From Maribacter orientalis (lineage in GTDB: Bacteria > Bacteroidota > Bacteroidia > Flavobacteriales > Flavobacteriaceae), in contig NZ_FNZN01000003.1 in the NCBI RefSeq assembly GCF_900109345.1, forward strand, positions 434,001 to 498,000: a DNA stretch of 64,000 nucleotides, in the 5' to 3' direction. A program made the position numbers and the translations under genes. This document shows, in pieces, positions 28,648-48,225 of the stretch; positions within the stretch are counted from its first letter, which is position 1; each line of letters opens with the position of its first letter. Under the pieces are notes generated by a model. That model searched no databases. It was not told where the DNA came from and was given only the letters and a program-made list of their open reading frames with translations.

Positions 28648-28673
28648 GTAACGAGTAATATGTGTTTTTGAGC

Positions 28674-28693
28674 GATTCACCACCTAGTGAATC
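28674..28693. repeat. Inverted repeat 2 in leader of small secreted protein
   Basis: GATTCAC, six bases, GTGAATC, a perfect seven-base stem 40 bases before the start at 28733. There is no T-run, so it is not a standard terminator. Confidence 0.7.
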
Positions 28694-28732
28694 AAGGCCT
28701 GCTGCGTTCTATAAGTGTAACAAACGCAAGTC

Positions 28733-28969
28733 ATGAAAACAATACTAACAATCATCTTTATCATCTTCTTAGGATTTACTGCTCAAGCACAAAACGGTAC
28801 TGCCGATGTCAAAGTTGAAACTATTGAAATGACAATCGTTACTGAAACATCTTACGAAATGAACTTGGAGACTAAAACGGAAGTAGCTCGTTTATACAAG
28901 TTTAAAAATTCTAACATCAAAAAGGAATTGAATTTTCTTACTAAGGCTAACAAACCTAAAATGGCTTAG
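28733..28969 (+). CDS. Small secreted protein, family of four (member 1)
   Basis: This 78-residue protein has a Sec signal peptide (MKTILTIIFIIFLGFTAQAQ, cut after residue 20), leaving about 58 residues. The mature part begins with a KVETIEMTIV strand and ends in the shared signature ARLYKFKNSNIKKELNF, followed by TKANKPKMA. I do not recognise a named family. Three more members occur in the window at 29294 and 37466 and, on the minus strand, at 48149; all share R-[LF]-[YF]-[KR]-x-K-N and L-x-F. The basic, repeated C-terminus hints at binding to something negatively charged, or at a secreted peptide, but that is speculation. A 180-base leader with two inverted repeats precedes it. Confidence 0.85.
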   Translation: MKTILTIIFIIFLGFTAQAQNGTADVKVETIEMTIVTETSYEMNLETKTEVARLYKFKNSNIKKELNFLTKANKPKMA

Positions 28970-29293
28970 TTTTATTAGTTAATTGAGTAACTACTTAACA
29001 GAATTTTCTTTATTATATCTTCAAGAAAGTAACTTTAAATAGCATCCGAAAAGCAAACGATTAATATTTCAGGATAGGAAATCAATAAATTTGTAGGAAT
29101 ATGATTATTAAATCGATAAACGGTTCATAAATTCCGATTATCGACAAATATATTTGTAGGAAAACGGACTACAAAAAAAGGTAATACATCGAAAAGCTAT
29201 ACTTTCATCGTTAAAACAATACATCTTGTCGATTTCAAAATACGTTTACTTACAATGAGAGGGTTATCTATAAACCAAATTTACCTACTTATT
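28970..29293. other. Leader region with direct and inverted repeats
   Basis: These 324 non-coding bases hold a direct repeat of ATTTGTAGGAA (29089-29099 and 29152-29162). They also hold an inverted repeat TCGATAA / TTATCGA (29113-29119 and 29138-29144) between the two copies. No Bacteroidota -7 box was picked out with confidence. This looks like a regulatory leader of the second small secreted protein gene. Confidence 0.6.
29089..29162. repeat. Direct repeat ATTTGTAGGAA flanking an inverted repeat
   Basis: ATTTGTAGGAA occurs at 29089-29099 and 29152-29162, 63 bases apart. TCGATAA and TTATCGA lie between them at 29113-29119 and 29138-29144. Together they form a nested arrangement upstream of the small gene at 29294. 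Confidence 0.6.
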
Positions 29294-29533
29294 ATGCGTA
29301 CAATTATTTTTTTATTCCTTGTTGTCTGTTTGGGAACCAAGTCCCAAGCTCAAGAGATGTTACCCGTTACCAAAGTGGAGACTATTGTAATGCCCATGGC
29401 AGATATAATTGTCCAATCTGAAATTAATACTCAGGGTTACCAAACAGCTGCAAGGTTTTTTAAAGTTAAAAATGCTAGAATTAAACAAGCTTTAAAATTT
29501 AAACCAACAACAGTAAAAACATTTTTTGCTTAA
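29294..29533 (+). CDS. Small secreted protein, family of four (member 2)
   Basis: This 79-residue protein has a signal peptide (MRTIIFLFLVVCLGTKSQAQ). The open frame begins at 29255, but the ATG at 29294 puts the signal at the N-terminus and is chosen. The mature part has VTKVETIVMPMADIIV, paralleling the KVETIEMTIV of member 1, and the signature ARFFKVKNARIKQALKF. Phe replaces Leu and Tyr in the first half, making it the most divergent member. The C-terminal tail is TVKTFFA. It is only 324 bases downstream of member 1 and is probably a tandem duplicate. Its stop codon overlaps that of the convergent tesA-like gene by three bases. Confidence 0.83.
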   Translation: MRTIIFLFLVVCLGTKSQAQEMLPVTKVETIVMPMADIIVQSEINTQGYQTAARFFKVKNARIKQALKFKPTTVKTFFA

Positions 29534-30270
29534 TTCATTTTATCAACTTCGGTAGTAGTAGTTACCTCTGTATCGGTTTTTGGTAGTACAACCGATTTTA
29601 AAATTTTCCAGACATTATTAGTAACAATTTTTTGCCCCTCTGCTGTTGGGTGAATACCATCCTCTAAATTCAATTCAGGTATACCAGCAACACCTTCCAA
29701 TAAAAAAGGTATTAACAGAATTTCATTAGACTTGGCTAAAGCAGGATACATAGCCATAAATTGAGAGGTATAGTCAGAACCCATATTTGGTGGTATCTGC
29801 ATTCCGGCTAAAATAATAATAGTTTCAGGGTTTTTAGCCTTAACCATATCGATCATTGCTTGAAGATTGTTCATCGATTCAGAAATGGGTATTCCTCTTA
29901 GTCCGTCATTAGCACCCAACTCTAAAACAAAAATATCTACAGGTTGGTTCAGAACCCAATCAAGTCTATTTAAACCGCCAGATGTGGTTTCGCCGCTCAA
30001 TCCAGAATTAATGACCTTATATTCCAATCCTAAAGAGTCTAAACGCTGCTGAATTCTATTTGGGAATCCTTCCTTTGTATCTAAGCCATATGCGGCTGTA
30101 AGACTATTGCCATAAAACAAGATAAACTTTTGGTTAGTATCAATAACCTCCTTTTGGGTAGTACTAATTTCTTTGGCAGCGCCATCCGATTGTTTTTGTT
30201 CTGTACTTTCTCCACATCCAATAACCATGAGTGCCCATAAAAAATAACGAAACTTTAATACTTTCAACAT
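29530..30270 (-). CDS. tesA: TesA-type arylesterase / lysophospholipase, lipoprotein
   Basis: This 246-residue SGNH hydrolase resembles E. coli TesA (thioesterase I / lysophospholipase L1 / arylesterase). It has a lipoprotein signal (MVIGC, Cys19) and SGNH motifs: Ser56 in FYGNSLTAAYG, Gly in INSGLSGETTSGG, Asn in LELGANDGLRG and the Asp/His pair in LEDGIHPTAEG. It is therefore anchored in the envelope. It is divergent from an ABC transporter pair that resembles ybbA and ybbP, reproducing the tesA/ybbA/ybbP neighbourhood known from E. coli. This supports a shared function of the three in lipid or envelope metabolism, still unproven. Confidence 0.9.
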   Translation of the reverse strand: MLKVLKFRYFLWALMVIGCGESTEQKQSDGAAKEISTTQKEVIDTNQKFILFYGNSLTAAYGLDTKEGFPNRIQQRLDSLGLEYKVINSGLSGETTSGGLNRLDWVLNQPVDIFVLELGANDGLRGIPISESMNNLQAMIDMVKAKNPETIIILAGMQIPPNMGSDYTSQFMAMYPALAKSNEILLIPFLLEGVAGIPELNLEDGIHPTAEGQKIVTNNVWKILKSVVLPKTDTEVTTTTEVDKMN

Positions 30271-30332
30271 AGTTTTAGCTTATTAGATTCAAAATCATTT
30301 GCTTATTTTGTTAGCTTGAAGTAAAATGATTT

Positions 30333-31022
30333 ATGGCAAAGATATTAAACGTACGTAATCTAAGGAAAACGTACACGAGTGGATCTAAAAATTTGACAGT
30401 ATTAGATGATATTTCTTTTTCAATAGAGGAAGGGGAAACTTTTGCAATCGTAGGTCCTTCCGGTAGTGGGAAAACTACTTTGTTAGGACTATGTGCTGGT
30501 TTAGATGAAATTGATGAAGGTGGTATAGATCTTTGTGGTGAAGATTTAAGTACGTTGAATGAAGACCAGCGTGCTCTTTTAAGAAATAAAAAAGTCGGAT
30601 TTATTTTTCAAGATTTTCAATTGTTACCGACCTTAACCGCATTAGAGAATGTAAGTGTTCCTTTAGAATTACAAGGCGCGCCACATGCAACAAAAGATGC
30701 TATGGAACTACTGACCAAAGTAGGTCTTGGCAATCGACATAATCATTATCCGTCACAGCTTTCTGGTGGGGAACAACAACGGGTTGCTTTAGCTAGGGCA
30801 TTTTCAAACAAACCTTCAATTCTTTTTGCTGATGAACCAACGGGTAATTTAGATGAAGAAACAGGAGAAAAGGTGATAAAATTACTGTTCGATTTAAATA
30901 CTGAAATGGGAACTACTTTGGTTATTGTAACCCATGATTTAGAATTGGCTAAACTGAACCAACATGTATTACGACTTAAAGGTGGTAAAATAGTAATCAA
31001 TGAAACCTCTGCAATATCTTGA
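30333..31022 (+). CDS. ABC transporter ATP-binding protein, YbbA-like
   Basis: This 229-residue ABC ATPase of the MacB/LolD/YbbA type, for mechanotransmission or lipoprotein export-like machines, has Walker A GPSGSGKTT and signature LSGGEQQRVALARAF. Walker B is ILFADEPTGNLDEETGE, and the switch histidine is in VTHD. It is coupled to the permease gene: the permease TTG start overlaps its stop codon. Divergent from tesA with 62 bases between, it fits the ybbA position of the tesA/ybbA/ybbP synteny. Confident about the protein class; the transported substrate is unknown. Confidence 0.93.
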   Translation: MAKILNVRNLRKTYTSGSKNLTVLDDISFSIEEGETFAIVGPSGSGKTTLLGLCAGLDEIDEGGIDLCGEDLSTLNEDQRALLRNKKVGFIFQDFQLLPTLTALENVSVPLELQGAPHATKDAMELLTKVGLGNRHNHYPSQLSGGEQQRVALARAFSNKPSILFADEPTGNLDEETGEKVIKLLFDLNTEMGTTLVIVTHDLELAKLNQHVLRLKGGKIVINETSAIS

Positions 31023-33571
31023 GTAAACCAACACGAACTTCAAAAGCAGATTTTAATTGGTTATTGAAAATGGCTTGGCGCGATGGTAAGGCAAGTGGTA
31101 AGCGCTTGCTCTTGTTCATGGCTTCCATAATTTTGGGTATAGCAGCAGTCGTTTCAATTCAGTCTTTTAGTGATAACCTTAAAGATAATATCGGTCTACA
31201 GTCAAAAGCCCTTATGGGAGCCGATTTTCTCATCGATAGTAATCAACCAGCAAATGAGCGGGTAATTCAGTTGATGGACTCCCTTGGTGGAGCCGATGCT
31301 AGGGAGGTGAATTTCGCTTCGATGGCAGCTTTTACAAAAAATGGAGCCACTAAATTAGTTCAGGTGCGTGGTATGGAAGGAGGTTTTCCTTTTTACGGGG
31401 AATTAGAAACCGAGCCCGCAAATGCAGCTATTGAATTTCAAGAAAAAGGAGGTGCTTTAGTTGATGCTACCGCGATGTTACAATTTAATTTAAAACCGGG
31501 CGATAGTGTAAAGCTAGGGTCTATTACTTTTCCGATTATCGGTTCATTGATAACCGCACCTGGTAGTACAGGAATTGGCGCTACGGCGGCACCACCTATT
31601 ATTGTGCCATTTCGGTTTATGGAAGAAAGCGGACTACTACAAAGGGGAAGCCGTTTAGGGTATAATTATTATTTTAAAAACCCCAATATAGATTTAAAGG
31701 AACTTAATAAAAAGGTAGATCCCTTGTTAGATGCCGAAAATGCTGATTTGGATACTCATACAGATACCAGTCAGCGATTAGGTCGGCGGTATGAAAATGT
31801 TGGTCGATTTTTAAATCTTGTGGCATTTATAGCACTTCTGCTAGGTTGTGTAGGTATCGCTAGCTCTGTGCATATTTATATTAAAGAGAAATTAAAATCT
31901 GTTGCCATTCTCAAATGTTTAGGAGCGACCCGTAAGCAGACCTTTTTAATTTATTTGCTTCAAATTGCCGGTATGGGGTTGTTAGGCGGCTTCATCGGGA
32001 CTGTTTTAGGTCTGATTTTACAACAAACTTTTCCGTTAATTCTACAAGAATTTCTGCCGTTTCAAGTAGAAATATCTACTTCGTACCAATCGATTTTTGT
32101 AGGCTTATTATTAGGCGTCTGCATGTCAGTTTTGTTTGCACTTTCTCCTTTGATTAATACGTGGTTCGTTTCACCTTTGCAAGTTTTACGTGTACAGGAA
32201 GATACAAGCAAAAAATCGCGTCCATATCAAATATGGGTAATGATAGCTATAGTTCTATTTGTATTCCTTTTTGCATATTGGTTATTAGGTAGATGGTCAT
32301 TTGCAGCAAGTTTTGTGGCAGGTATCTTAGTAACGTTTTCCATATTAGCAGGAGTTTCCATTCTATTTATGCGAATGATAAAACGATATTTTCCAAAATC
32401 GTGGAGCTTTGCAGCGCGACAAAGTTTATTGAATCTATATCGCCCCAATAACCAAACCGTGGTATTAATATTGGCAATAGGAATAGGAACTTTTCTAATA
32501 AGTACCTTATATTTTACTAAAGATTTTCTACTCGCTAAAACGTCTTTCGAATCAAGCGCTGAAAGTCCGAATTTGATACTTTTTGACGTTCAGACCGAAC
32601 AACGTGATGCCGTGGCCAACACGATTACCCCAAATGGGTTAACTGTAATTGATAATATTCCTATAGTAACTATGCGAATGGAACGTATAAAAGACCGCAG
32701 TGTTAATGATATTCGATTAGATAGTACTACACGGGTGAATAAATGGATTTTAAACCATGAGTTTAGAACAACCTATCGAGACTCTATGATCGGGTCTGAA
32801 AAGTTATTAGAAGGAGAGTGGATGCCTAGTATGGCTCCCAATGCTGAGGTTATACCGATTTCTTTGGCAGATAATGTTGCCAATGATGCTCTTGTAACTC
32901 TAGGAGATACAATTTCATTTAATGTACAAGGTAAATTGATGACCACCGTAGTGGGTAATATTAGACAAGTCGATTGGGCGCGCATGCAGCTTAACTTTTC
33001 TATTGTATTTCCTAAAGGGGTGTTAGAGAATGCGCCACAGTTTCATGTATTGACAACAAATGCACCTGACAAAAAATCTTCAGCCAATTTGCAACGTGAA
33101 CTGGTGAAAAAGTTTCCTAATGTCTCCATTATAGATTTACGACAGGTGGTGACACTCATTGAAAATATTCTGGATAAGATTTCATGGGTGATTACCTTTA
33201 TGGCTTTCTTCAGTATTCTAACAGGTATTATTGTTTTAATAGGATCTGTACGTAATAGCAAATACCAACGTATACGTGAAAGTGTATTGTTGCGTACACT
33301 TGGTGCACAAAGCAAACAGATTTTAAAAATTAATGCTTTGGAATATCTGTTTTTAGGAATATTAGGTAGCGGAGTAGGCGTACTTCTTTCTTTAGTAAGT
33401 AGCTTTTTATTGGCTTATTTTATTTTTGACACACCGTTTATACCCTCATGGGTGCCATTTTTAGTGGTCTTACCAGGAATTACTCTTTTAGTTCTTTCTA
33501 TAGGATTATTAAATAGCAGGGGTGTTTTAAATAGTCCGCCATTGCAAGTTTTAAGAAAAGAAGGAAAATAA
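31019..33571 (+). CDS. FtsX-family ABC transporter permease, YbbP-like
   Basis: This 850-residue permease has two FtsX domains (about eight to ten helices) and large periplasmic loops. The first helix is around residues 30-50 (LLLFMASIILGIAAVVSI), and a first FtsX block follows near 270-390 (KSVAILKCLGATRKQTFLIYL, core LKCLGATRKQ). A central hydrophobic region comes near 405-500, and a second FtsX block is near 710-845 (SVLLRTLGAQSKQILKI, core LRTLGAQ). The start is TTG, overlapping the TGA of the ATPase gene. The architecture matches E. coli YbbP. This type often handles lipids or lipoproteins; no substrate is established. Confidence 0.92.
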   Translation: MSKPTRTSKADFNWLLKMAWRDGKASGKRLLLFMASIILGIAAVVSIQSFSDNLKDNIGLQSKALMGADFLIDSNQPANERVIQLMDSLGGADAREVNFASMAAFTKNGATKLVQVRGMEGGFPFYGELETEPANAAIEFQEKGGALVDATAMLQFNLKPGDSVKLGSITFPIIGSLITAPGSTGIGATAAPPIIVPFRFMEESGLLQRGSRLGYNYYFKNPNIDLKELNKKVDPLLDAENADLDTHTDTSQRLGRRYENVGRFLNLVAFIALLLGCVGIASSVHIYIKEKLKSVAILKCLGATRKQTFLIYLLQIAGMGLLGGFIGTVLGLILQQTFPLILQEFLPFQVEISTSYQSIFVGLLLGVCMSVLFALSPLINTWFVSPLQVLRVQEDTSKKSRPYQIWVMIAIVLFVFLFAYWLLGRWSFAASFVAGILVTFSILAGVSILFMRMIKRYFPKSWSFAARQSLLNLYRPNNQTVVLILAIGIGTFLISTLYFTKDFLLAKTSFESSAESPNLILFDVQTEQRDAVANTITPNGLTVIDNIPIVTMRMERIKDRSVNDIRLDSTTRVNKWILNHEFRTTYRDSMIGSEKLLEGEWMPSMAPNAEVIPISLADNVANDALVTLGDTISFNVQGKLMTTVVGNIRQVDWARMQLNFSIVFPKGVLENAPQFHVLTTNAPDKKSSANLQRELVKKFPNVSIIDLRQVVTLIENILDKISWVITFMAFFSILTGIIVLIGSVRNSKYQRIRESVLLRTLGAQSKQILKINALEYLFLGILGSGVGVLLSLVSSFLLAYFIFDTPFIPSWVPFLVVLPGITLLVLSIGLLNSRGVLNSPPLQVLRKEGK

Positions 33572-33630
33572 AAGGTATTTGTTTTTTTATAAATTTTAAA
33601 CTGAAGATGCTTTACTGATTATCTTTAAGC

Positions 33631-35286
33631 ATGAACTTGATAAAACATCTAATTTTTTCTTTTTTCTTTACGATTCTTCTAATTTCATGTAAGACCGAAA
33701 GTATAAAAGCAGACCTCATTATTACCAATGCCAATATTTGGACTGGTAATTCTGATAGCCCAAAAGCAGAAGCTATGGCTATTAAAGAGGATACCATTTT
33801 AGCTATTGGTTCAGCCATAGATATTCAAAAGTTTAAAGGGGAGTCTACAGAAGTAATTGATGTACAAAATAAATTCATCACTCCTGGTTTTATCGATACT
33901 CATGTACATTTACTAATGGGTGGTAATAGCCTTTTAAGTGTGCAACTTAGAGATGCCAAAACTAAAAATGAGTTCATCAATAGAATCGCGGCATTTGCTA
34001 AAGATATAAAACCTAACCAATGGATAGTTGAAGGAAATTGGGACCATACACTTTGGGGAGGAGAACTCCCTTCAAAAGAATGGATTGATGCATTTACAGG
34101 AGCGAATCCTGTAGCAATATATCGCATGGATGGGCATATGATTTTGGCTAATTCAGCAGCTTTGAAAATTGCAGGTATAGATAAGAATACTGCCAATGTA
34201 GAAAATGGGGAAATTGTTAAAAACCCTGACGGGTCACCCACTGGTATTTTAAAAAGCGAGGCTATGTATTTGGTATTAAATAAAATACCAGACCTTACTA
34301 ATGATGAGAAGGCAGAGGCAATAAATGTAGCTCAAGATTATTTAATTTCTCAAGGAGTTACTTCTATTCATGATGTCGATAGTTTAGGGGGCTACGAAGT
34401 TTTAAATACTTTGAAATCTGCCATGAAATTAAAAATCAGAGTTTATTCTGCTGACCCCTTAAAAAACTGGAAATCTATATCTAAAACCACTACTGAATCG
34501 AAATGGTTGAAAAATGGCTTAATGAAAGGTTTTGTAGACGGCTCATTAGGTTCACATACCGCAGCATTCAATGAGCCTTATTCAGATAAATTAGAAGATA
34601 AAGGTCTTTTTATAGCTAATATTGATAGTTTGTATCATTGGGTTTCAAATGCAGATAACAAAAACTTACAGGTAACAGTTCATGCCATTGGTGACAGAGC
34701 AAACAATACCGTATTGAACACATTTGAACGCGTTATTGAAGAAAATGGGAATAAGGACAGACGATTTAGAATTGAGCATGCGCAACATTTAGCTAAAGAA
34801 GATATTAGTCGATTTTCTAAACTGAATGTTATTGCAAGTATGCAGCCCTATCATGCAATTGATGATGGTAGATGGGCAAAAGAACTTATTGGTAAAGAAC
34901 GTATTAAAACTACCTATGCTTTTAAATCTTTGTTGGATGTAAATACAACTTTAGTTTTTAGTAGTGATTGGCCAGTTGCACCTGCCTCTCCAATTTATGG
35001 AATCTATGCAGCGGTTACTCGACAAACTATAGACAACAGAAACCCTGAGGGTTGGGTTCCAGAACAAAAAATAAATGTGTCACAGGCGTTAATGGCATAC
35101 ACTAAGAATGCAGCCTACAGTTCGTTCGACGAAAATATAAAAGGAACTTTAGAACTAGGTAAATTGGCTGACTTTGTTATTCTCAGTGAAGATTTAATGG
35201 TAATACAGCCGAATAAGATAAAAGATGTTAAGGTTTTGGAAACGTATATTGGTGGAAGGAAAGTGTATGTTTCAAACTTAAACTAG
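33631..35286 (+). CDS. YtcJ-like amidohydrolase, lipoprotein
   Basis: This 551-residue amidohydrolase superfamily member (YtcJ/imidazolonepropionase-like) has a lipoprotein signal (ISC, Cys20). The metal-binding HxH is in GFIDTHVHLLMG. Later motifs include FVDGSLGSHTAAFNEPY, the HAIGDRANN His, RIEHAQHL and the SSDWPVAP Asp. All the metal ligands of the family therefore look intact. It is envelope-bound. The substrate is unknown; members of the group hydrolyse cyclic amides, formamides or D-amino-acid derivatives. It stands alone between the ABC permease and a small PLDc_N protein. Confidence 0.9.
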   Translation: MNLIKHLIFSFFFTILLISCKTESIKADLIITNANIWTGNSDSPKAEAMAIKEDTILAIGSAIDIQKFKGESTEVIDVQNKFITPGFIDTHVHLLMGGNSLLSVQLRDAKTKNEFINRIAAFAKDIKPNQWIVEGNWDHTLWGGELPSKEWIDAFTGANPVAIYRMDGHMILANSAALKIAGIDKNTANVENGEIVKNPDGSPTGILKSEAMYLVLNKIPDLTNDEKAEAINVAQDYLISQGVTSIHDVDSLGGYEVLNTLKSAMKLKIRVYSADPLKNWKSISKTTTESKWLKNGLMKGFVDGSLGSHTAAFNEPYSDKLEDKGLFIANIDSLYHWVSNADNKNLQVTVHAIGDRANNTVLNTFERVIEENGNKDRRFRIEHAQHLAKEDISRFSKLNVIASMQPYHAIDDGRWAKELIGKERIKTTYAFKSLLDVNTTLVFSSDWPVAPASPIYGIYAAVTRQTIDNRNPEGWVPEQKINVSQALMAYTKNAAYSSFDENIKGTLELGKLADFVILSEDLMVIQPNKIKDVKVLETYIGGRKVYVSNLN

Positions 35287-35449
35287 TTTAGAGTATAATA
35301 TCAAAAACAATAATAAAACTGGAATATTTAAATTTTAAAAATCGTTAGTATCATTATTTAATAGGTTATGGAATTTTTGAGGTTTGATGCCATTTTAGTT
35401 ATATTTTAATGTTTTTATTGAAACTGATTACTAAATATTAATCTTCATT

Positions 35450-35671
35450 ATGGAAAGTACTATCTCAAACTTATCTTTAGGTATATGGGCATGGCAAACC
35501 TTTCTACTGGTTATATTAGGGCTATGGATCTATTGTTTAATAGACATAGCAAGAAATAAATTTAAAAATGATGCTAAAACCACTTGGTTTTTAATCGTGT
35601 TCTTCCTTCCTTTTTTAGGTACGTTGCTTTATATTTTTACAGGAAGAAATAGAAAGATAATAACCAATTGA
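35450..35671 (+). CDS. PLDc_N-domain small membrane protein
   Basis: This 73-residue protein has two transmembrane helices, about 12-31 (WAWQTFLLVILGLWIYCLID) and 44-64 (TTWFLIVFFLPFLGTLLYIF), separated by a basic cytosolic loop (IARNKFKNDAK). This is the PLDc_N fold, which in longer proteins precedes a cardiolipin synthase domain. In isolation such small proteins are common but of unknown function. The preceding 163 bases are AT-rich and hold no visible promoter box. Membership in PLDc_N is based on the spacing of the helices and the closing FTGRNRK motif. Confidence 0.85.
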   Translation: MESTISNLSLGIWAWQTFLLVILGLWIYCLIDIARNKFKNDAKTTWFLIVFFLPFLGTLLYIFTGRNRKIITN

Positions 35672-35768
35672 TATACAATATCATTAATTAATGAAAATTG
35701 ATAACCCTCACTGGTCAATATTAACGCTATAATTAGAGCATTTAGCATGTATTGTCAACTAATCCCCA

Positions 35769-35776
35769 TAGCTTTG
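35769..35776 (+). promoter_or_regulatory. -7 promoter box of RNA helicase gene
   Basis: TAGCTTTG matches TAnnTTTG, 26 bases before the ATG at 35802. A TTG at 35752-35754 lies closer than the usual 19-21 base spacing, so the -33 assignment is uncertain. Confidence 0.45.
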
Positions 35777-35801
35777 CAATTGAAATACAAAAGTAATTGC
35801 T

Positions 35802-37154: not shown

Positions 37155-37465
37155 GAATAGTTTCTTTAATATTCAGATTACGTTGCTTGTATAATAGAGT
37201 AACTACATTCTTTTTTAAACAAATAGCATTTATTAGACTCCATATTTGGCTGTTTTATTAAGGCTTTACCAATTGTTCTATTTTAAAAACATCAACGAAT
37301 TACATACTATCTCGGTATGATGTTTTTGGTTCAAAAACCATTCGTCGATACTTTTCTTCGATTCATCCTAAAAATTTACGCTAGCCGAAAATTATAGTAC
37401 TTCAGCGAGGTCAAGAGCTTTGATTGCTGGACTGCGGGTATCTTTATATTGTTCAACATTAAGAT
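37155..37465. other. Leader region of third small secreted protein
   Basis: These 311 non-coding bases between the helicase gene and the small secreted protein gene at 37466 contain nested inverted repeats. AAAAACATCA (37285-37294) pairs with TGATGTTTTT (37318-37327), GTTTTTG (37322-37328) pairs with CAAAAAC (37332-37338), and ATCAACGAAT (37291-37300) pairs with ATTCGTCGAT (37340-37349) with one mismatch. ACCATTCGTC at 37337-37346 is also found before the fourth member. Confidence 0.6.
37285..37349. repeat. Overlapping, mutually exclusive inverted repeats
   Basis: The first stem (AAAAACATCA / TGATGTTTTT) and the third (ATCAACGAAT / ATTCGTCGAT, one mismatch) share bases 37291-37294, so they cannot form together. 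A second short stem (GTTTTTG / CAAAAAC) competes with both. It is upstream of the small gene at 37466. Confidence 0.65.
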
Positions 37466-37723
37466 ATGAAAGTACTATTCACATTATTAATTATAATTTT
37501 CGCCGGAACTTTAACGATGGCACAAAACCCTCAATCTAATGATAAAGTTTACGCTATTGAAATGGGTATTGTTATGGTTGATAGCCTTAATAATACTGAC
37601 CATAAGAAAACGTTTACAATCAGTACTGAAACTGAAATAACTCGTTTGTATCGATATAAGAATTCTAGAGTCAATAAAGAATTAGCATTCATTACCCAAA
37701 AGAGTTATGGTAAGTTGGCATAA
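37466..37723 (+). CDS. Small secreted protein, family of four (member 3)
   Basis: This 85-residue protein has a signal peptide MKVLFTLLIIIFAGTLTMAQ, leaving about 65 residues. The mature part has a VYAIEMGIVMV strand, paralleling KVETIEM in the other members. A longer middle segment follows, then the signature TRLYRYKNSRVNKELAF and TQKSYGKLA. The LYRYKNSRV segment aligns with LYKFKNSNI in member 1 and LYKNKNNRI in member 4. I do not recognise a named family. A 311-base leader with overlapping inverted repeats precedes it, and a hairpin terminator at 37737 follows. It is probably monocistronic. Confidence 0.86.
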   Translation: MKVLFTLLIIIFAGTLTMAQNPQSNDKVYAIEMGIVMVDSLNNTDHKKTFTISTETEITRLYRYKNSRVNKELAFITQKSYGKLA

Positions 37724-37736
37724 TCTTTGCTCTATT

Positions 37737-37762
37737 AAAAAAGGTGCAATGAAGCACCTTTT
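37737..37762 (+). terminator. Rho-independent terminator of small secreted protein gene
   Basis: AAAAGGTGC, loop AATGAA, GCACCTTTT. A nine-base stem is followed by a short T-tract. It begins about 13 bases after the stop at 37723. Confidence 0.85.
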
Positions 37763-37774
37763 GAAAATTCAATT

Positions 37775-39480: not shown

Positions 39481-39594
39481 AAGGTGGTGGTTTAAGTTAG
39501 TTCTTTAAATATAGGCAAAGTGATAGTAATGAGACAGAGCTAGAGTCATCTTTATTAATGGAATTATGAACTAGCAATTATATAAGGCTTTAAC

Positions 39595-40827
39595 TTATTC
39601 AATTGGAGCTAATTGTTGCTTTATTTCTTGGAATTTGACAATGTAGTTGGTGCCTTTTTTGGAGGCGTCGCGTTCAATTGTTCCGCGTAATTGACGGGTT
39701 AGGTTATGGATAAGTTTTAAACCTAATGACTTTGTGTTTTTGTAATTGATTGTTTCAGGAAAACCAATGCCATTATCTCCTATTTCAAGAATGTAACAAT
39801 TTTCTTTTTCTGAATCCTTTTGTAATTTGATATGAATTTGTCCTTTTTCCTCTCCTTCAATTCCATATTTTAAAGCATTGGTCAAGGCCTCATTAATCAA
39901 AAGGCCTAATGGAATAGCGGTATCTATACCCAATTTTATATCTGGAATGTCAATCTTTAAATCTACATTATTGTCAATTCCTTTAATTGATCTAATAAGG
40001 TATTCGCTTAATTCTTGCACGTAAGAGTTGTATTCAATATGACTAATATCATTACGCATATAGAGCATTTCATGAACCATTGCCATTGCAATGACCCTAT
40101 TCTGCGTTCCTTTTAACAGTCCTTTCATTGGTCCGCTTTCAGTATTTCGAGATTGCAGACTTAATAAACTTGATACGGTCTGTAAGTTGTTTTTAACTCT
40201 ATGATGAACTTCTTTTAATAAATTTTCTTTTTCATGAACTTGAATAGCCATGACTTTTTTCGAAGTATAGAGCGCGTTGTAGGTCTTTAATAAACTTTTG
40301 CCAAATGTGTTTCCTAAAATAAAAACCGAAAATAAAACTGAAACTAGGCCAAAAACAGCACTTGAGCTTTCAGGAATAACATTTTCTGTGATTTTTAACT
40401 CAGGTATAGTTTGTGAGAAAATTAGAATAATAAGAACTGGAATAACGTTTAAGTAGATTTTACCATACCTGCTACTGTTGATAATGATAAAGCCACCAAA
40501 TGCAACTATTGGAATCATAAAAATAAAAGGACTATGAATACCACCACTGTACAAAGTCACTATAAAGGAGGATATAAGACCTAGTATAGATGAAAAATTG
40601 AAGGTGGGTAAAATCTTTTTATGAATTTTAAAGTATTGTAAGTTGATTAAGTTTAAAATTCCAAAAGCCATAAGTGGGAATGGAACAACTTCGGTTATAC
40701 CTAATAGGAAATAGCATAATATTCCAAATAGAATGGATATTATGCTAGTGGTATAATTTACCCTTAAAAAAAGTTTGGTTTTATCCTGAAGACGCTCATT
40801 GTCATTGGTAAATCCGGGCATAGACAT
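39595..40827 (-). CDS. Sensor histidine kinase (HisKA_2/HATPase type)
   Basis: This 410-residue membrane kinase has six predicted helices in the first 180 residues (MASE-like sensor region). A HisKA_2 dimerisation domain follows with phosphoacceptor His in EVHHRVKNNLQTVSSLLSLQSR (core HHRVKNNLQ). The HATPase domain has the N-box NEALTNALKYG and the G-box GDNGIGFPE. The HisKA_2 class often pairs with single-domain receivers or LytTR regulators. No regulator gene is next to it; the window's only receiver is at 11927. The stimulus is unknown. The N-terminal membrane region without a periplasmic loop suggests sensing within the membrane. Confidence 0.9.
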   Translation of the reverse strand: MSMPGFTNDNERLQDKTKLFLRVNYTTSIISILFGILCYFLLGITEVVPFPLMAFGILNLINLQYFKIHKKILPTFNFSSILGLISSFIVTLYSGGIHSPFIFMIPIVAFGGFIIINSSRYGKIYLNVIPVLIILIFSQTIPELKITENVIPESSSAVFGLVSVLFSVFILGNTFGKSLLKTYNALYTSKKVMAIQVHEKENLLKEVHHRVKNNLQTVSSLLSLQSRNTESGPMKGLLKGTQNRVIAMAMVHEMLYMRNDISHIEYNSYVQELSEYLIRSIKGIDNNVDLKIDIPDIKLGIDTAIPLGLLINEALTNALKYGIEGEEKGQIHIKLQKDSEKENCYILEIGDNGIGFPETINYKNTKSLGLKLIHNLTRQLRGTIERDASKKGTNYIVKFQEIKQQLAPIE

Positions 40828-40938
40828 TGTTTATGTACTAAAAAAAACATACTAATTAAGTAATGTAAATCTAATTATGTTTTTAACATTATACTAGTAT
40901 TTTTTGTTATTGTATAACATAATTATAAAAAGTTAGCA

Positions 40939-42333
40939 TTAGCTGCGAACTTTCTTCGGTGTAAGGTCTGTTAAATCTCCAATATTAATAGCTTTTCCAG
41001 ATTCAATACTTCTTCTAGCCCCAATACCTATTAAAATGGACATAGCCCCATCTCTAACACCGGCAGTTCTACCATATGGGTCAGTAGTTTTAGGATTAAT
41101 GAATATTTTATCATGAAGTCTTTTATCACCACCACCATGACCACTTTTTTCAATAGGTACTTTTACAATTTCATGTTTTTCCCAAAGCTTATGAACGATA
41201 ATCGACTCGTGGTTCAATTCTTCCTTATTATTTTGAGCCATTTCTAAAGCATGTTTTTCTGCCTCATCAACAGTAGATATTGAATGATAAGGAATGTCTT
41301 GTGAAGCTTCAATTCTGCCTTTTGTACCATTAAACGCAACTCGCCATCCTTCAAAGGGTGAATAGGTAGTTAAGCTATAGTTCAATATCGTATTGTCGGC
41401 ATATTTTACTTGTGCAGACATTTTATCATAAATATCAATATTTTCTCTAAATAAGCAATTATCCCTTATGTAGCCATCTTCATGTTCGTGATCTACATAT
41501 AATTTTTTAGATGTTTCATCTTTAGTAATATCCCAATAAAATTCGCAGGTATCGTTATGATTACAACTACGGCAATTAGATCCTCTTTGTGGTCCGTTCT
41601 TGCCATAATATTCTAAATCACCATAGGCAAATACCTGATCGGGTTCAGAATTTATCCACCAGTTTAATAAATCAAAATGATGAGTAGATTTATGAACCCA
41701 GAGGGATCCGCTACTCTCCATATCACCGTGCCATCTTCTAAAATAAGAAGCACCATGATAGGTGTTCAAATACCAATGGAAATCCACGGACACCAAATCC
41801 CCAATCGTTTTATTTGCCAATAATTCTTTTATTTTGGTTGCATATGGACTCCATCTATAATTAAAACCTACAATTAGATTTTTTTCTGATTTCTTTTCAG
41901 CGTCAATAATTGCCTGACATTTAGTTTCATCTGTAGTCAACGGTTTTTCGGTTAATACGTCACAACCCATTTCCAATCCTTTAATTATATATTGATGGTG
42001 GGTTGAATCTTTAGTAGTCACTATAATCAAATCTGGTTTCGTCATCTTCACCATCTCTTCAAAATCTGTGAAAAGTGGGCAATCAGCACCAATAAAATTT
42101 TTGGCATATTTTAGACGACTTGAGTTGATATCCGATAGCCCGACGAATTCTAAAATTTTTCCGTATTCATCAACTAAACGTTTTCCCCAAAAGGTGGTTC
42201 CTCGTATACCGGTTCCTACCAATGCAACTTTTAGTTTTGAAGTCTTACTAAATGCGAATGTTGAAATTGGAAAAGCTGAACTAGCTGCAAGCATTCCTAT
42301 AGAATTGATGAATTTTCTTCTGGTGGTATTCAT
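40939..42333 (-). CDS. Gfo/Idh/MocA-family oxidoreductase, Tat-exported (second copy)
   Basis: This 464-residue oxidoreductase has a twin-arginine signal (NTTRRKFINSIG) and Ala-rich cleavage region. The Rossmann start is LKVALVGTGIRGTTFWGKR (core GTGIRG), then GADCPLFTDFEEM, IIVTTKDSTHHQYIIKGL (core DSTHH) and TEKPLTTDE. The substrate side contains HKSTHHFDLLNWWI. It has a Cys-rich segment (NCRSCNHNDTCEFYW) that could bind a metal, which is not usual in the family. It is separate from the first copy at 24273. The substrate is unknown but likely a sugar or glycoside in the periplasm. No DUF1080 gene is adjacent. Confidence 0.88.
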   Translation of the reverse strand: MNTTRRKFINSIGMLAASSAFPISTFAFSKTSKLKVALVGTGIRGTTFWGKRLVDEYGKILEFVGLSDINSSRLKYAKNFIGADCPLFTDFEEMVKMTKPDLIIVTTKDSTHHQYIIKGLEMGCDVLTEKPLTTDETKCQAIIDAEKKSEKNLIVGFNYRWSPYATKIKELLANKTIGDLVSVDFHWYLNTYHGASYFRRWHGDMESSGSLWVHKSTHHFDLLNWWINSEPDQVFAYGDLEYYGKNGPQRGSNCRSCNHNDTCEFYWDITKDETSKKLYVDHEHEDGYIRDNCLFRENIDIYDKMSAQVKYADNTILNYSLTTYSPFEGWRVAFNGTKGRIEASQDIPYHSISTVDEAEKHALEMAQNNKEELNHESIIVHKLWEKHEIVKVPIEKSGHGGGDKRLHDKIFINPKTTDPYGRTAGVRDGAMSILIGIGARRSIESGKAINIGDLTDLTPKKVRS

Positions 42334-42442
42334 TGGTTTGATTTTAAAGCGGTTATCTAAATATAGCTAATTTTCAATACCAAAGATTTTTAGTATGTTG
42401 ATTTAACAAGTTGACGAAGAAAAGTGAAAATAGGAGGTACTA

Positions 42443-42476
42443 AAAAAGGCATCCCAATCTTGGGATGCCTTTTTTA
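42443..42476. terminator. Bidirectional terminator at end of secA
   Basis: GGCATCCCA, loop ATCT, TGGGATGCC, with A6 on the left and T6 on the right. It ends 19 bases from the secA stop on the minus strand. Confidence 0.9.
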
Positions 42477-42494
42477 AATATAGAAAGTTTTATA

Positions 42495-45400
42495 TTAATC
42501 TTGGGTCAATACCCAAGAACCACTATGAATAAGAGGTTCTGCCTGCTTAAACTTTACAGTTTTACTTTCTCCACTCAACACATTTTTAATTGTAACTCGT
42601 TCGTTACGACCAATTTTAGGTTGTTCTCTTGTAATAGTTTCTGTAACGGCAGGTCGCTGTCCTTGTGTTTGACCTACAGCTCTACTCTGAGCTGCCATTT
42701 CATCGCTATTAGGAATTTCTTCTTTAGTCGTTTTTAAATTTTCTTTTGAACGTTGAATATTCCTTTCTTCTTGGATAGCGTTTGTGTTTTCAGATGGTAA
42801 TTCTCCTTTAAATAAGAATGAAATTACTTCTTTATTCACTTTCTCTATCATTGACTTAAATAGTTCAAATGCTTCGAACTTATAAATTAATAAGGGATCT
42901 TTTTGTTCGTGAACTGCTAATTGCACAGATTGTTTCAACTCATCCATCTTACGAAGATGGGTTTTCCACGCGTCATCAATAATAGCTAGTGAAATATTCT
43001 TTTCGAAATCGGTAATTAATTGTTTACCATTGGTATCGTATGCTTCCTGAAGATTGGTTACAACATTTAAGCTTTTAATTCCGTCGGTAAATGGAACTAC
43101 AATACGCTCGAAATTGTTTGCGTTATCTTCATGCACCTTTTTAATTACAGGGAAAGCAGATGCAGCATTACGTTCCATTTTATCATTATAATGGTCGTAA
43201 GCAGCTTTGTAAATTTTACCAGTTATTTCTTGAGCACCCAATTTTCCGAAGTCAGCTTCATCAACTGGTGATGTCATTGAAAAATATTTAATTAGCTCAA
43301 ATTCAAAATTCTTATAATCATTGGCAGCTTTATTGCCTTCTACAATTACCTCACAGGTGTCATAGATCATATTGGCAATATCAAGCTTTAAACGCTCACC
43401 TTGTAATGCATGTCGCCTTCTTTTGTAGACTACTTCACGCTGTGCGTTCATAACATCATCATATTCTAAAAGACGTTTACGAACTCCAAAGTTGTTTTCC
43501 TCTACTTTTTTCTGTGCACGTTCGATAGATTTTGTCATCATACTATGTTGTATAACTTCACCATCTTCTAAGCCCATCTTATCCATCATTTTAGCTACCC
43601 TGTCAGAGCCGAATAAACGCATAAGGTTATCTTCTAGGGAAACATAGAATTGAGAGCTTCCTGGATCACCTTGTCTACCAGAACGTCCGCGTAATTGTCT
43701 GTCAACACGTCTAGAATCATGACGTTCTGTACCTACTATGGCTAGACCACCAGCTTTTTTGACTTCTTCAGATAATTTAATATCCGTACCACGACCTGCC
43801 ATGTTGGTTGCGATGGTAACAATACCCGCATTACCTGCTTCGGCAACAACATCTGCTTCTTTCTTATGAAGCTTTGCGTTCAATACATTATGAGGAACTT
43901 TACGAACACTTAGTAGTTTTGATAATAATTCTGATATTTCTACAGAAGTGGTACCAATAAGAACGGGTCTTCCAGATTTACTTATTTTCGTTACTTCATC
44001 AATAATTGCATTGTACTTTTCTCTTTTCGTTTTGTAAATTAAATCGTTACGGTCATCTCTAGCAATTGGTCTGTTGGTTGGAATCTCCATTACATCCAAT
44101 TTATATATTTCCCAGAATTCACCGGCTTCTGTAACAGCCGTACCGGTCATTCCAGAGAGCTTACGATACATTCTAAAATAGTTTTGTAATGTAACCGTTG
44201 CAAAAGTTTGGGTTAAGGCTTCGATTTTTACATTCTCCTTTGCTTCAATAGCTTGGTGAAGTCCGTCTGAATATCTACGGCCATCCATAATACGACCGGT
44301 TTGCTCATCAACGATCATTACCTTATTGTCCATTACTACATATTCAGTATCCTTTTCGAAGAGGGTATATGCTTTTAATAATTGACTCATGGTATGAATA
44401 CGCTCGCTCTTAATGGTAAAGTCTTTAAAAAGCTCTTCTTTGAGTTCGGCTTCTTTTTCAATTTCAAGATTTTGGTTTTCAATTTTAGCAATTTCACCAC
44501 CAATATCTGGCATTACAAAGAAGTCTCTGTTTTCTTCACCAGAAATATAATCAACACCTTTATCTGTCAATTCAATTTGGTTATTTTTCTCATCAATAAC
44601 GAATAATAGGTCTTCATCTACCTTGGGCATTTCCCTATTATTATCCTGCATATAGAAATTCTCGGTTTTTTGGAGTAATTGTTTGACTCCTTCTTCACTC
44701 AAAAACTTAATTAAGGCCTTATTCTTAGGTAATCCTCTAAATACACGCAGTAAAAGAAATCCGCCTTCTTTAGTATCGCCTTCAGCAATCAGCTTTTTAG
44801 CTTCTGCCAAAACACTGGTTAAATGTTGACGTTGCTTTTGTACGATTTCGTCAACTTTAGGTTTCAATTCGTTAAATTCATGACGGTCACCTTCTGGTAC
44901 AGGACCAGAAATAATTAAAGGTGTACGAGCATCATCTATCAATACAGAATCTACCTCATCGACAATGGCATAGTTATGTGGGCGTTGCACCAAATCTTTT
45001 GGTGTGTGTGCCATATTATCCCTTAGGTAATCGAAACCAAATTCGTTATTAGTACCATATGTAATATCTGCGTTGTAAGCTGCACGTCTACCATCAGAAT
45101 TTGGTCGGTGATGATCTATACAATCAACAGAAAGGCCATGAAATTGGAATATAGGTGCCATCCAAGCACTATCTCTTTTTGCTAGGTAATCATTAACGGT
45201 TACCAAGTGAGCACCGTTTCCGCCTAGTGCATTTAAATATAATGGTAATGTTGCTACAAGAGTTTTACCTTCACCAGTATGCATTTCAGCAATCTTACCT
45301 TGGTGCATTGCAATACCACCTATAAGCTGCACATCGTAATGTATCATATCCCAGGTTACTTCTTTACCGGCAGCGTTCCAAGAATTTTTCCAAATAGCAT

Positions 45401-45857
45401 CTGAGCCCTCTAAGGTGACATAATCGTTAGAACCTGACAATGTTCTGTCATATTCTGACGCTGTCACTTTCAAAGTTTCATTATTAGCAAAACGTTTGGC
45501 AGTTTCCTTTACAACGGCAAAAGCTTCTGGAAGTAACTTGTTTAAAGTTTCTTCAGAAATAGCATAGGCCTCTTCCTTTAATTTATCAATTTCGGTATAG
45601 ATATCTTCGTTCTTATCAATATCTGTAGAGTTCTTAACCTCTTCCTCTAAAGTAATTATTTGGTCAGTTTTTTCTTTGTAAGAATCCTGAATTATCTTCT
45701 TAAACTCTATGGTTTTCTGCCTTAGTTCGTCATGGCTAAGGCTTTCAAGCTGCGATTCAAATGTCTTTATCTGATTTACTAAAGGCTGTAATTCCTTTAC
45801 ATCTTTTTGTGATTTATCACCAACGAATGCCTTTAGTATGGAATTAATAAAACTCAT
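42495..45857 (-). CDS. secA: Protein translocase ATPase SecA
   Basis: SecA drives Sec-dependent protein export at the inner membrane. At 1120 residues it has the Bacteroidota-type insertions and is longer than the E. coli protein (901). Walker A is [14 protein letters not shown] (core GEGKT), and DEAD-like motif II is [17 protein letters not shown]. The helicase RGR motif is in [23 protein letters not shown] (core [13 protein letters not shown]). An insertion around 340-480 contains many charged residues. The C-terminus ends in [18 protein letters not shown] without the zinc-binding Cys/His SEC-C tail found in E. coli. A TATTTTTG box lies at 45894-45901 upstream. Bidirectional terminator downstream. 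Confidence 0.97.
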
Positions 45858-45893
45858 ATATTTTAAACTATTAGAATTGAAATTTACTTAACC

Positions 45894-45901
45894 CAAAAAT
45901 A
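45894..45901 (-). promoter_or_regulatory. -7 promoter box of secA
   Basis: TATTTTTG on the minus strand matches TAnnTTTG, about 36 bases before the secA start. The -33 element is not clear at the expected spacing. Confidence 0.4.
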
Positions 45902-46021
45902 GGTAAGGAGATTTTCAAAATATTTTAGAGACGACAAATATGGCCGACGCAGTAAATAAGCAAAAGGTATTCCAGTCTTGTTTTTTAACCTGTATAACCT
46001 AAATACCTGCCAAAATTACAT

Positions 46022-46049
46022 AAAAAAAAAGCCTCCGAGGAGACTTTTA
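46022..46049 (-). terminator. Rho-independent terminator of DUF2795 gene
   Basis: On the minus strand AAAAGTCTCC pairs with GGAGGCTTTT, with a short loop and a T-run of eight or more bases. It is about 25 bases after the gene's stop. Confidence 0.88.
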
Positions 46050-46072
46050 AGTAGTTATTATGATATCGAATA

Positions 46073-46297
46073 TTAATATTCGTCCTCGTTCCAGAGGTAG
46101 TCTTCTTCCGTAGGATAGTCAGGCCAAATCTCTTCGATAGATTCATATATCTCGCCGCCTTCCTCTTCCATAGATTGTAAATTTTCTACGACTTCTAAAG
46201 GGGCTCCAGTTCTGATGGAGTAATCTATTAACTCATCTTTACTTGCCGGCCAAGGTGCATCACTTAAATAAGATGCTAATTCTAATGTCCAATACAT
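46073..46297 (-). CDS. DUF2795 family protein
   Basis: This 74-residue acidic cytosolic protein is conserved in Bacteroidota. It starts MYWTLELASYLSDAPWPASKDELIDYSIRTGAP (core YLSDAPWPASKDELIDYA-like), has a VVENLQSMEEEGGEIYESIEEIWPDYPTEEDY block and ends NEDEY. The family name DUF2795 is my recognition; function unknown. A good promoter (TTG, 19 bases, TACTTTTG) is directly upstream at 46325-46354 and a terminator follows, so the gene is monocistronic and probably well expressed. The tight domain and strong Asp/Glu content suggest a small helical protein. Confidence 0.87.
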   Translation of the reverse strand: MYWTLELASYLSDAPWPASKDELIDYSIRTGAPLEVVENLQSMEEEGGEIYESIEEIWPDYPTEEDYLWNEDEY

Positions 46298-46324
46298 AGT
46301 AATTGTTTGATTTTAATTTTTTTG

Positions 46325-46354
46325 CAAAAGTAATTTTTAAATTGAGACAGCCAA
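46325..46354 (-). promoter_or_regulatory. Bacteroidota-type -33/-7 promoter
   Basis: On the minus strand TTG (46352-46354), exactly 19 bases, then TACTTTTG (46325-46332). This is the best match in the window to the consensus TTG-N19-TAnnTTTG. It drives the DUF2795 gene, whose ATG follows 28 bases after the -7 box. Confidence 0.75.
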
Positions 46355-46431
46355 GAAATTATTGATTTATTTCAATATAATCTCAATATTTTTTTTTACA
46401 ATTATTAATTGATAACGAATAATTTATAGAT

Positions 46432-47010
46432 TTATTGGTCTATTTTTTTTGGATTCCATTTTATTTCATTCGCCTTTAAATCACATGACAATTTCCGTGC
46501 CAATACAAATAAGTAATCTGAAAGTCTATTTAAAAAGGAAAGTACATTACCGTCGAAAGGTTCGTTTTCAAATAATAATGTTGAAATGCGTTCTGCTCTT
46601 CTACAAACGGTTCGTGCTATGTGACAGTATGACACTGTAGTATGGCCGCCAGGTAAAATAAAATGAGTCATTTGTGACAATTGACTGTCCATTTCGTCAA
46701 TAGCATGTTCTAAAAATTCGATTTCTACAGATCCTACCTTGGTAATTTTTAAGCGTTGTTTGCCATTTTTTAGAACTTCTTTTTCTGGGTCAGTGGCTAA
46801 AACTGCGCCTACTGTAAATAAATGCTCCTGTATTGCTATTAATTGTTGTTGATTGATTGGGTCAATATCTTGATCTCTTATGAGTCCAATCCAAGAATTC
46901 AATTCATCTACGGTACCATAACTATCTATGCGGATATGATGCTTTGGTACACGTGTGCCACCAAAAAGTCCGGTTGTGCCGTCATCTCCTGTTTTGGTAT
47001 ATATTTTCAT
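46432..47010 (-). CDS. Cob(I)yrinic acid a,c-diamide adenosyltransferase, PduO type
   Basis: It transfers the adenosyl group of ATP to cob(I)alamin to make adenosylcobalamin, the cofactor of methylmalonyl-CoA mutase. The 192-residue product starts with the PduO signature MKIYTKTGDDGTTGLFGGTRVPKHH (core TKTGDDGTTGLFGG), then DSYGTVDELNSWIG. It also has FILPGGHTTVSYCHIARTVCRRAER (core ARTVCRRAER), and ends in FLNRLSDYLFVLAR, all diagnostic. It is cytosolic. It is compatible with meaB at 18489 and the radical SAM gene at 54996 as cobalamin users. A small membrane protein gene lies upstream on the same strand. Confidence 0.94.
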   Translation of the reverse strand: MKIYTKTGDDGTTGLFGGTRVPKHHIRIDSYGTVDELNSWIGLIRDQDIDPINQQQLIAIQEHLFTVGAVLATDPEKEVLKNGKQRLKITKVGSVEIEFLEHAIDEMDSQLSQMTHFILPGGHTTVSYCHIARTVCRRAERISTLLFENEPFDGNVLSFLNRLSDYLFVLARKLSCDLKANEIKWNPKKIDQ

Positions 47011-47075
47011 TTTGTAGATTGTAGAAAGTTTAAATAAATATTAGGGTGTTGTAAGCTGACGAGTTTTTGCGATTA

Positions 47076-47225
47076 TTACCGGTTTTCGTCTTTGTTCTTT
47101 CGCTCATAATCTCCCATGAACTTTCTTGATTTTCGGTCATTTGACTTTCCTCTACTGGTTATACGTATAGCTAAATATATAGCGAACACGACGCCTAGAA
47201 TTATATATATGGTATTGCTGTTCAT
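47076..47225 (-). CDS. Small membrane protein, 49 residues
   Basis: ATG at 47225 on the minus strand gives MNSNTIYIILGVVFAIYLAI, one transmembrane helix, then a strongly basic tail (RITSRGKSNDRKSRKFMGDY, then ERKNKDENR). The arrangement is typical of small single-pass proteins, with the tail predicted to stay in the cytosol. I do not recognise a family. It lies 30 bases downstream of the shortened methyltransferase-like gene and 65 bases upstream of the adenosyltransferase start, so it may be co-transcribed with either. The frame is clean and compact, but short frames need protein-level support. Confidence 0.6.
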   Translation of the reverse strand: MNSNTIYIILGVVFAIYLAIRITSRGKSNDRKSRKFMGDYERKNKDENR

Positions 47226-47255
47226 TAAAAATTACTTTAGTTTAAAATTACAGGA

Positions 47256-47747
47256 TTATATCCGTATTTTAAAATGTTGCTTTGCCTGTTCCTTTCTAAA
47301 AAATATGATCCCGCAGTAAAATAAATCAACTGTAACTCTTACATGCTCTAATACTTTCAGCTTTTCCCAACTTTCATTATTATTTGGATTTTTATGAATT
47401 CCGTCTAAAAATAACATGGAGTCATTGCCTAGATTATTAACTTCTATGCTACTGTTAAGGTCAGATATGCTTCCAAACAAAACATCGGTATCGTTTTTAG
47501 TAAAGGAAATATTTGGGCAATAGTGTTTTATGGTTTCCTCAATGTTTTCATCAGTACCCAAAATACGTAATGAATGATATTTGAAGTAATCAAGACTTTT
47601 GATAAGAATTTTTAAGCTTGTGGGAAGTTTTAATTGCTTTTTCTTGTAAAGACATTTCGTTACATAATCATATACAAATGGAGAATGAACCCCATGTTGA
47701 TTGGTTGCTGAAAAAAGGAATTTAATAAAGGATATAAAACTAAACAC
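47256..47747 (-). CDS. Shortened methyltransferase-like protein
   Basis: This 163-residue protein keeps the two ends of a class I SAM-dependent methyltransferase family common in flavobacteria. The N-terminal FLFSATNQHGVHSPFVYDYVTKCLY block is present (core NQHGVHSPFVYDYVTK). So is the C-terminal FFRKEQAKQHFKIRI block with the FLDGIHKNPNNNESWEKLK segment. The middle, which in full-length relatives (about 230-240 residues) holds the SAM-binding glycine loop, is shortened and replaced by a region without a G-x-G motif (FKYHSLRILGTDENIEET). It is probably not an active methyltransferase. Either it is a fast-evolving remnant or a repurposed scaffold. The reading frame is uninterrupted. Confidence 0.7.
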   Translation of the reverse strand: MFSFISFIKFLFSATNQHGVHSPFVYDYVTKCLYKKKQLKLPTSLKILIKSLDYFKYHSLRILGTDENIEETIKHYCPNISFTKNDTDVLFGSISDLNSSIEVNNLGNDSMLFLDGIHKNPNNNESWEKLKVLEHVRVTVDLFYCGIIFFRKEQAKQHFKIRI

Positions 47748-47894
47748 GAATTACTTTTTCGATTTTTGTCAAAAGTAATGATTAGTGATGCAACTTAGAA
47801 TTGTAATGGTAAACATTAATGTTTTAAAGTTATAGGTAAAGGTATGGAACGGGGGAGGTGTAGCTTAGTTAGAATAGGGCAGTAGGTATCTAAA

Positions 47895-48149
47895 TTATGA
47901 AAGTTTAGTGCCGTTCAATTTGGTGGTGAATTCCAAAGCCTTAATTATTCTGTTATTTTTGTTCTTGTATAATCTTGCAACCTCGTTTGTATTTTCAATT
48001 TCTATAGTAGGAACAGTACTATTAGAAGTTCCAATTGTTTGTGCCATTTCAACTTGTGCAGTTTCAACCTCTAAAGAAACATTCTCATTGTTTGCTTGCG
48101 CTAAGAAACATGTGAAGAAAAGTGCGGTTAAAACGATAATTGATTTCAT
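47895..48149 (-). CDS. Small secreted protein, family of four (member 4)
   Basis: This 84-residue protein has signal peptide MKSIIVLTALFFTCFLAQAN, leaving about 64 residues. The mature part is rich in Glu, Thr and Val (VETAQVEMAQTIGTSN), then the signature ARLYKNKNNRIIKALEF followed by TKLNGTKLS. The motif aligns closely with the others: R-L-Y-K-x-K-N, R-I, L-x-F. It is the only member on the minus strand. The 157 bases upstream contain a hairpin at 48226-48255 and the motif ACCATTCGTC, also found before member 3. Unrecognised family. The gene is probably monocistronic. Confidence 0.85.
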   Translation of the reverse strand: MKSIIVLTALFFTCFLAQANNENVSLEVETAQVEMAQTIGTSNSTVPTIEIENTNEVARLYKNKNNRIIKALEFTTKLNGTKLS

Positions 48150-48225
48150 AATATTTGTTTTACACTGCTAAAGTACAGGCATGAACAAACATAATTTGTC
48201 GCATAAAGTTGACCAGCATTTTACT

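Follow-up and report, generated by a model that had tools for sequence, protein, structure and literature searches.

A family of small exported flavobacterial proteins with a rigidly spaced upstream box array, co-occurring with a HisKA_2 sensor kinase

Peptide signalling in which an exported peptide feeds back on a sensor kinase is best known from Gram-positive bacteria; Agr-type systems are found among the LytTR-controlled peptide regulons there, and the kinase of Agr-type/LytTR peptide circuits is HPK10. LytTR systems have two 9-bp repeats upstream of the peptide genes, mostly 12 bp apart (PMC6193735). Among these LytTR regulatory systems (LRS), the Gram-positive peptide and bacteriocin regulons HdrRM and BrsRM resemble the locus described here in having peptide genes with repeated 9-mers upstream. 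The locus lies in a 64,000-nt stretch of the Maribacter orientalis genome (contig NZ_FNZN01000003.1, positions 434,001 to 498,000; hereafter the window), which encodes four small exported proteins with a common C-terminal signature. It differs from the LytTR regulons in its six boxes, partly mirrored, in the ordinary export signal of its proteins, in having no regulator gene in the block and in its linked kinase, which is of the HisKA_2 type. We propose, tentatively and at a shade under an even chance, that these proteins are cationic helical peptides exported as outputs of a two-component system through phased operators and acting at the envelope. The four members are:

28733..28969, + strand: member 1 (P0001), exported 78-aa protein (alignment, profile search, pN/pS)
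29294..29533, + strand: member 2 (P0002), divergent B type, 79 aa (alignment, profile search)
37466..37723, + strand: member 3 (P0003), C type, 85 aa (alignment, profile search)
47895..48149, - strand: member 4 (P0004), D type, 84 aa (alignment, profile search)

A preliminary description of the window had reported four small frames with a common C-terminal signature, and all are present at these coordinates. The signature R-[LF]-[YF]-[KR]-x-K-N-x(2)-[IV]-x(3)-L-x-F occurs in 4/4 members (checked by eye), and its R, K, N, L and F positions are invariant in their alignment. Each member starts with an N-terminal hydrophobic export signal, ending AQAQ, SQAQ, TMAQ or AQAN, and member 3 is 96% identical to a copy in M. 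arcticus (locus L014). The earlier count of four has to be raised to seven for the genome, three copies lying outside the window: a profile built from the four sequences finds two extra full-length copies (contigs C17 and C5, E 1.2e-29 and 4.7e-27) and a shorter relative on contig C10 (E 2e-5). The latter, at C10:360236-360328 (L007:1498-1677, - strand), is a 59-aa protein without a signal that retains the conserved C-terminal part, and is possibly a decayed copy. The members were also described as dispersed rather than gathered in one array, which does not carry over to related genomes, where local tandem arrays are frequent (up to five copies in G026) and near-identical tandem copies occur among the arrays.

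On alignment and profile evidence, the four proteins are one real, unnamed flavobacterial protein family. The earlier view of it as unrecognised stood up: nothing in Pfam or NCBIfam matches the members above a curated cut-off, four motif strings of the family matched in no paper of the literature searched, and literature searches on the family gave no paper combining all terms and no title on it. Only weak likenesses, with scores under the cut-off where shown, link it to Pfam DUF3316 (3/35 members, best E 0.0014) and DUF4307 (2/35 members, best E 0.0061). One of the 35 members matches an unnamed candidate model of PADLOC, PDC-S15 (E 5e-5), and a PDB profile search returned only two ribosomal L24 chains (E 0.045 and 0.056). 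The family is present in 36/36 genomes of the genus, M. orientalis included (9-row profile, E<=0.001), and in 71 of 397 Flavobacteriaceae genomes, belonging to 42 of 237 genera (35-row profile, E<=1e-5; a lower bound, with up to 14 candidates scored per genome). Matches near E 1e-4, as well as L015, were left uncounted; these are mostly longer proteins sharing mainly the signal sequence. When genomes were drawn from the whole phylum, six of 395 matched, M. orientalis included, and the rest of these are labelled Flavobacteriaceae too.

The precursors consist of the signal sequence, a variable acidic linker and a conserved cationic C-terminal segment. Over 112 distinct proteins the mean charge is -3.8 in the linker and +7.7 in the last 30 residues; cysteine occurs in the mature part of just two, and 89 have A as the C-terminal residue. 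The family is under purifying selection: five sets of related copies give ratios of non-synonymous to synonymous change (pN/pS) of 0.11, 0.27, 0.45, 0.12 and 0.25 for the last 30 residues, and constraint is looser in their linkers (0.31 to 1.07). Modelling suggests that the conserved cationic segment of about 30 residues is probably an amphipathic helix: it is amphipathic as a helix (mean moment z +1.48) and not as a strand (-0.37) in 105 proteins, and AlphaFold, run on seven sequences, places a helix at 48-73 at low confidence (predicted local distance difference test, pLDDT, 55.8).

The regions upstream of the members contain the following features:

28556..28732, + strand: control region of member 1, phased (leader model, 118.8 bits; alignment)
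28559, 28579, 28612, 28633, 28652 and 28673, + strand: six box cores of member 1 (positions checked)
28603-28611 and 28624-28632, + strand: LytTR-like direct repeat pair, 9-mers 21 nt apart (register ranking; positions checked)
29112..29293, + strand: B-type control region of member 2, extent approximate (class B; without leader-model match)
37293..37465, + strand: control region of member 3, phased (A-type leader model, 54.6 bits, E 3.6e-16; class C)
48150..48306, - strand: D-type upstream region of member 4 (class D; without leader-model match)

The preliminary description had seen long leaders before all four genes but missed their repeated, rigidly spaced content. The gaps measure 181, 324, 311 and 157 nt, the last, before member 4, not being long; the unusual trait of the leaders is their content and not their length. 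Of 117 leaders that passed a first filter 84 were of A type, reduced to 65 by removal of close duplicates, and four irregular ones (L041, L050, L081 and L088) were dropped by eye before alignment of the remaining 61. These 61 align with few gaps, and six conserved cores hold CG or CC at fixed distances, with successive steps of 20 nt (58/60), 33 nt (57/61), 21 nt (61/61), 19 nt (60/61) and 21 nt (54/61 leaders). Box 6 lies 58-63 nt from the ATG in 60/61 leaders, and in the leader of member 1 a hairpin-prone stretch occupies the space between them. The B-type leader of member 2 has CG boxes at 29188, 29208 and 29228, 20 nt apart, with more boxes upstream, and the boxes upstream of D-type copies are kept among those copies and differ from the A-type array.

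A sequence-only leader model was built from A-type leaders, the B, C and D types being left out on purpose. In 20 loci of 20 kb outside the model, 15 of them from genera not in it, a match (E<=0.01) precedes 64 of 66 family genes; the remaining six of the 70 hits also cover these leaders but on the other strand, reflecting the partial mirror symmetry of the boxes, and there are none elsewhere in these loci. The model gives four strong hits in the M. orientalis genome, each at a family gene, the next hit having E 0.08; within the window, members 1 and 3 have leaders that it detects. In a four-copy array the two middle copies (L191:10298 and 10969) are without a leader match; thus leader and gene can separate. 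At L180:4261, a family copy with an early stop (55 aa) retains its full leader.

The boxes contain inverted repeats between them, which would also suit a structured cis-acting RNA, riboswitch-like, with the protein as its regulated product. Compared with shuffles, RNA folding is stronger in the final 45 nt upstream of the ATG (mean z -1.65; 34/61 below -1.5) and slightly so in whole leaders (mean z -1.15; 23/61 below -1.5). Set against this, the stretch from -95 to -45 has a mean folding z of 0.00, and the rigid spacing is of about two helical turns. RNAalifold gave 0 pairs and no consensus fold, pair counts for three stems were no better than in shuffles, no conserved pairing backed by compensatory changes exceeded the shuffles, and no Rfam family reached its gathering score in the stretch searched. 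Apparent compensatory changes noted by eye, in the terminal hairpin and between box 1 and box 3, were not upheld by the pair counts. Given the lack of an Rfam family and of a consensus fold, and pair counts equal to shuffles, we set the structured RNA aside as the main reading and consider it very unlikely; the alignments suggest that the leader would act as DNA rather than RNA.

Two neighbours of the family genes in the window were examined:

39595..40827, - strand: HisKA_2 sensor histidine kinase with a multi-transmembrane (multi-TM) N-terminal sensor (five hydropathy peaks)
27868..28551, + strand: M23 peptidase, a syntenic neighbour used as control and outside the proposed system (neighbour clusters, genome search)

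No response regulator lies beside this kinase. Neighbours were surveyed in 41 loci, i.e. 40 of 20 kb and the window, some genera being represented twice and the block not always fully covered. The kinase cluster is found in 28 of these with 43 copies, MsrA in 34, SecA in 25, M23 in 21, while TesA, an ATP-binding cassette (ABC) ATPase and an FtsX-like permease each occur in 20. In loci that show the block, the family genes are flanked by MsrA/M23 on one side and kinase/SecA on the other, except member 4 of the window, which lies beyond SecA; in a few loci (e.g. L190, L197, L204, L209, L211 and L212) family copies lie outside the block. Three HisKA_2 paralogues, in separate clades, stand near SecA in L175, L176, L177, L178, L189 and L198. 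A Gfo/Idh-type oxidoreductase and a DUF1080-like protein (window 24273-26981; named by eye) adjoin MsrA and recur in several genera.

The composition of the block also bears on the reading that the proteins are antimicrobial or otherwise membrane-active peptides, made for competition or against envelope stress, their strong and regulated expression being due to the array. The cationic, amphipathic C-terminal segment and the near-identical tandem copies would fit, as would the ABC ATPase and FtsX-like permease pair. This pair, however, adjoins TesA as in the tesA-ybbAP gene order of other bacteria and therefore looks like housekeeping; no recurring immunity-like gene appears among the neighbour clusters listed, and a spread over 42 genera seems to us unusual for bacteriocins. 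We regard antimicrobial peptides as quite unlikely.

An alignment of 17 kinases shows a conserved SGGINSPF loop in the sensor. The RegB-type quinone-binding heptapeptide is GGXXNPF (PMC10525716), and the RegB/RoxS multi-TM redox kinases share with the window kinase a multi-TM sensor and a GGxx-PF-like loop (GGINSPF), from which they differ in that S here replaces the N of GGXXNPF and the catalytic part is HisKA_2. RegB-type membership was dropped on account of this loop in the 17-row alignment, and a PDB profile search of the kinase sensor gave no match.

The kinase sensor profile (E<=1e-20) matches 66 of the 397 Flavobacteriaceae genomes, again a lower bound, with up to eight candidates scored per genome. 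Family and kinase are both present in 59 genomes, the family only in 12, the kinase only in seven and neither in 319; the corresponding numbers of genera are 35, 7, 4 and 191. At least four of the family-only genomes (G120, G137, G573 and G745) have the same kinase with its sensor shortened or unmatched. Among the kinase-only genomes, the kinases of G095, G111, G691 and G701 are more distant and differently surrounded, and the match in G065 is partial, with a stop near a contig end. Seven genomes were rechecked for linkage, and in six a family copy is on the kinase contig within ~5-16 kb; G597, G751 and G764 have one copy within ~7 kb of the kinase and most copies far off or on another contig. 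In the 200-contig assembly of G085 the family copies do not share a contig with the kinase, a split that decides nothing on linkage.

Linkage within one conserved block, as in these six of seven genomes, would also be expected if the proteins were structural or other secreted components whose tie to the kinase reflected shared ancestry of that block. The M23 gene of the same block matches in 272/397 genomes (one query protein, for which paralogues are possible), at least 201 of them without the family; therefore the shared block alone does not explain the family's restricted range. M23 is in turn absent, at the cut-off used, from some genomes with the family, for example G036 and G046. We consider shared ancestry as the sole explanation very unlikely.

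Another possibility is that the exported peptide is a ligand or accessory protein of the multi-TM kinase, making an autoinducing circuit in Gram-negative bacteria. It would account for the co-occurrence, for one copy staying near the kinase while others lie elsewhere, for several kinase paralogues per locus (43 copies in 28/41 loci) and for a C-terminal segment that is conserved while the linker changes faster, and the operator geometry resembles that of LytTR peptide circuits. On the other side, kinase-only genomes exist, the GGINSPF loop of the sensor may point to redox or membrane sensing, and peptide release from the cell and binding to the kinase are hypothetical. We think a ligand role unlikely, and would put at a distinctly low probability the full circuit in which multi-copy peptides are sensed by the co-inherited HisKA_2 kinase, with feedback via the six-box LytTR-like array.

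We return to the outputs of a two-component system as the preferred, if tentative, reading. Small exported precursors with signal, acidic linker and putative cationic C-terminal helix would be its products, and its likely input the multi-TM sensor kinase of HisKA_2 type to which their genes are linked. A response regulator encoded elsewhere, most likely of LytTR type, would bind the rigid half-site array on one DNA face upstream of each family gene, and the exported helix would act at the cell envelope, either as a membrane-active element or by binding an envelope partner. Of the roles put forward in the preliminary description, the best match is with regulators or secreted peptides, given the phased operator-like region and the co-occurrence with a sensor kinase; a matrix component finds no support, and secretion, into the periplasm or beyond, is borne out as far as an export signal.

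The candidate regulator type is suggested by the sites themselves. When registers of the 61 leaders were scored for the LytTR consensus, registers 51 and 72 on the + strand ranked 1 and 2 of 242; both are 9-mers on one strand, at boxes 3 and 4 with a 21-nt offset, and at least 8/9 consensus positions are matched in 30/61 (rank 1) and 21/61 (rank 2) leaders. Upstream of the gene the leaders thus carry 9-bp direct repeats with a spacing of ~21 nt, as in a LytTR-controlled promoter, an assignment that is post hoc and refers to a predicted promoter.

Several points weigh against the two-component reading. (i) The register test was run after the boxes were known and is weaker than the rank suggests, and the strict LytTR consensus, for which we used [TA][AC][CA]GTTN[AG][TG], is not enriched in the leaders (21 seen vs 22.0 ± 4.9 in shuffles). 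(ii) None of the 17 LytTR genes of the M. orientalis genome is consistently linked to the family, and the scanned loci have just one place where a LytTR gene adjoins a family gene. (iii) The leader model has no match in the window upstream of members 2 (B type) and 4 (D type), and there is the slight excess stability of whole leaders as RNA. (iv) The seven kinase-only genomes exist, and G670 and G789 have the SecA-kinase-MsrA block without a family gene. (v) The co-occurrence is partly co-inheritance of one block, since most of the cases checked show the two linked, and the counts ignore ancestry. (vi) The control and the binding invoked are predictions from genomic data, and the helix has a structure model of low confidence.

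The 17 LytTR loci include a sole HisKA_2/LytTR neighbour pair (by motif), at L110:355-3050, 2.7 kb from one family copy. This TPR-HisKA_2/LytTR pair was rejected as partner, since it varies within Maribacter; of 12 corresponding sites, among 15 loci, only four have it.

The observations connect an unnamed exported family, found in 42/237 genera, with one sensor kinase and with an operator-like region of unusual rigidity. This link makes control and function directly testable; target family, regulator and signal pathway could be assigned together. If true, feedback between peptide and kinase would amount to a peptide autoinduction system in Bacteroidota.

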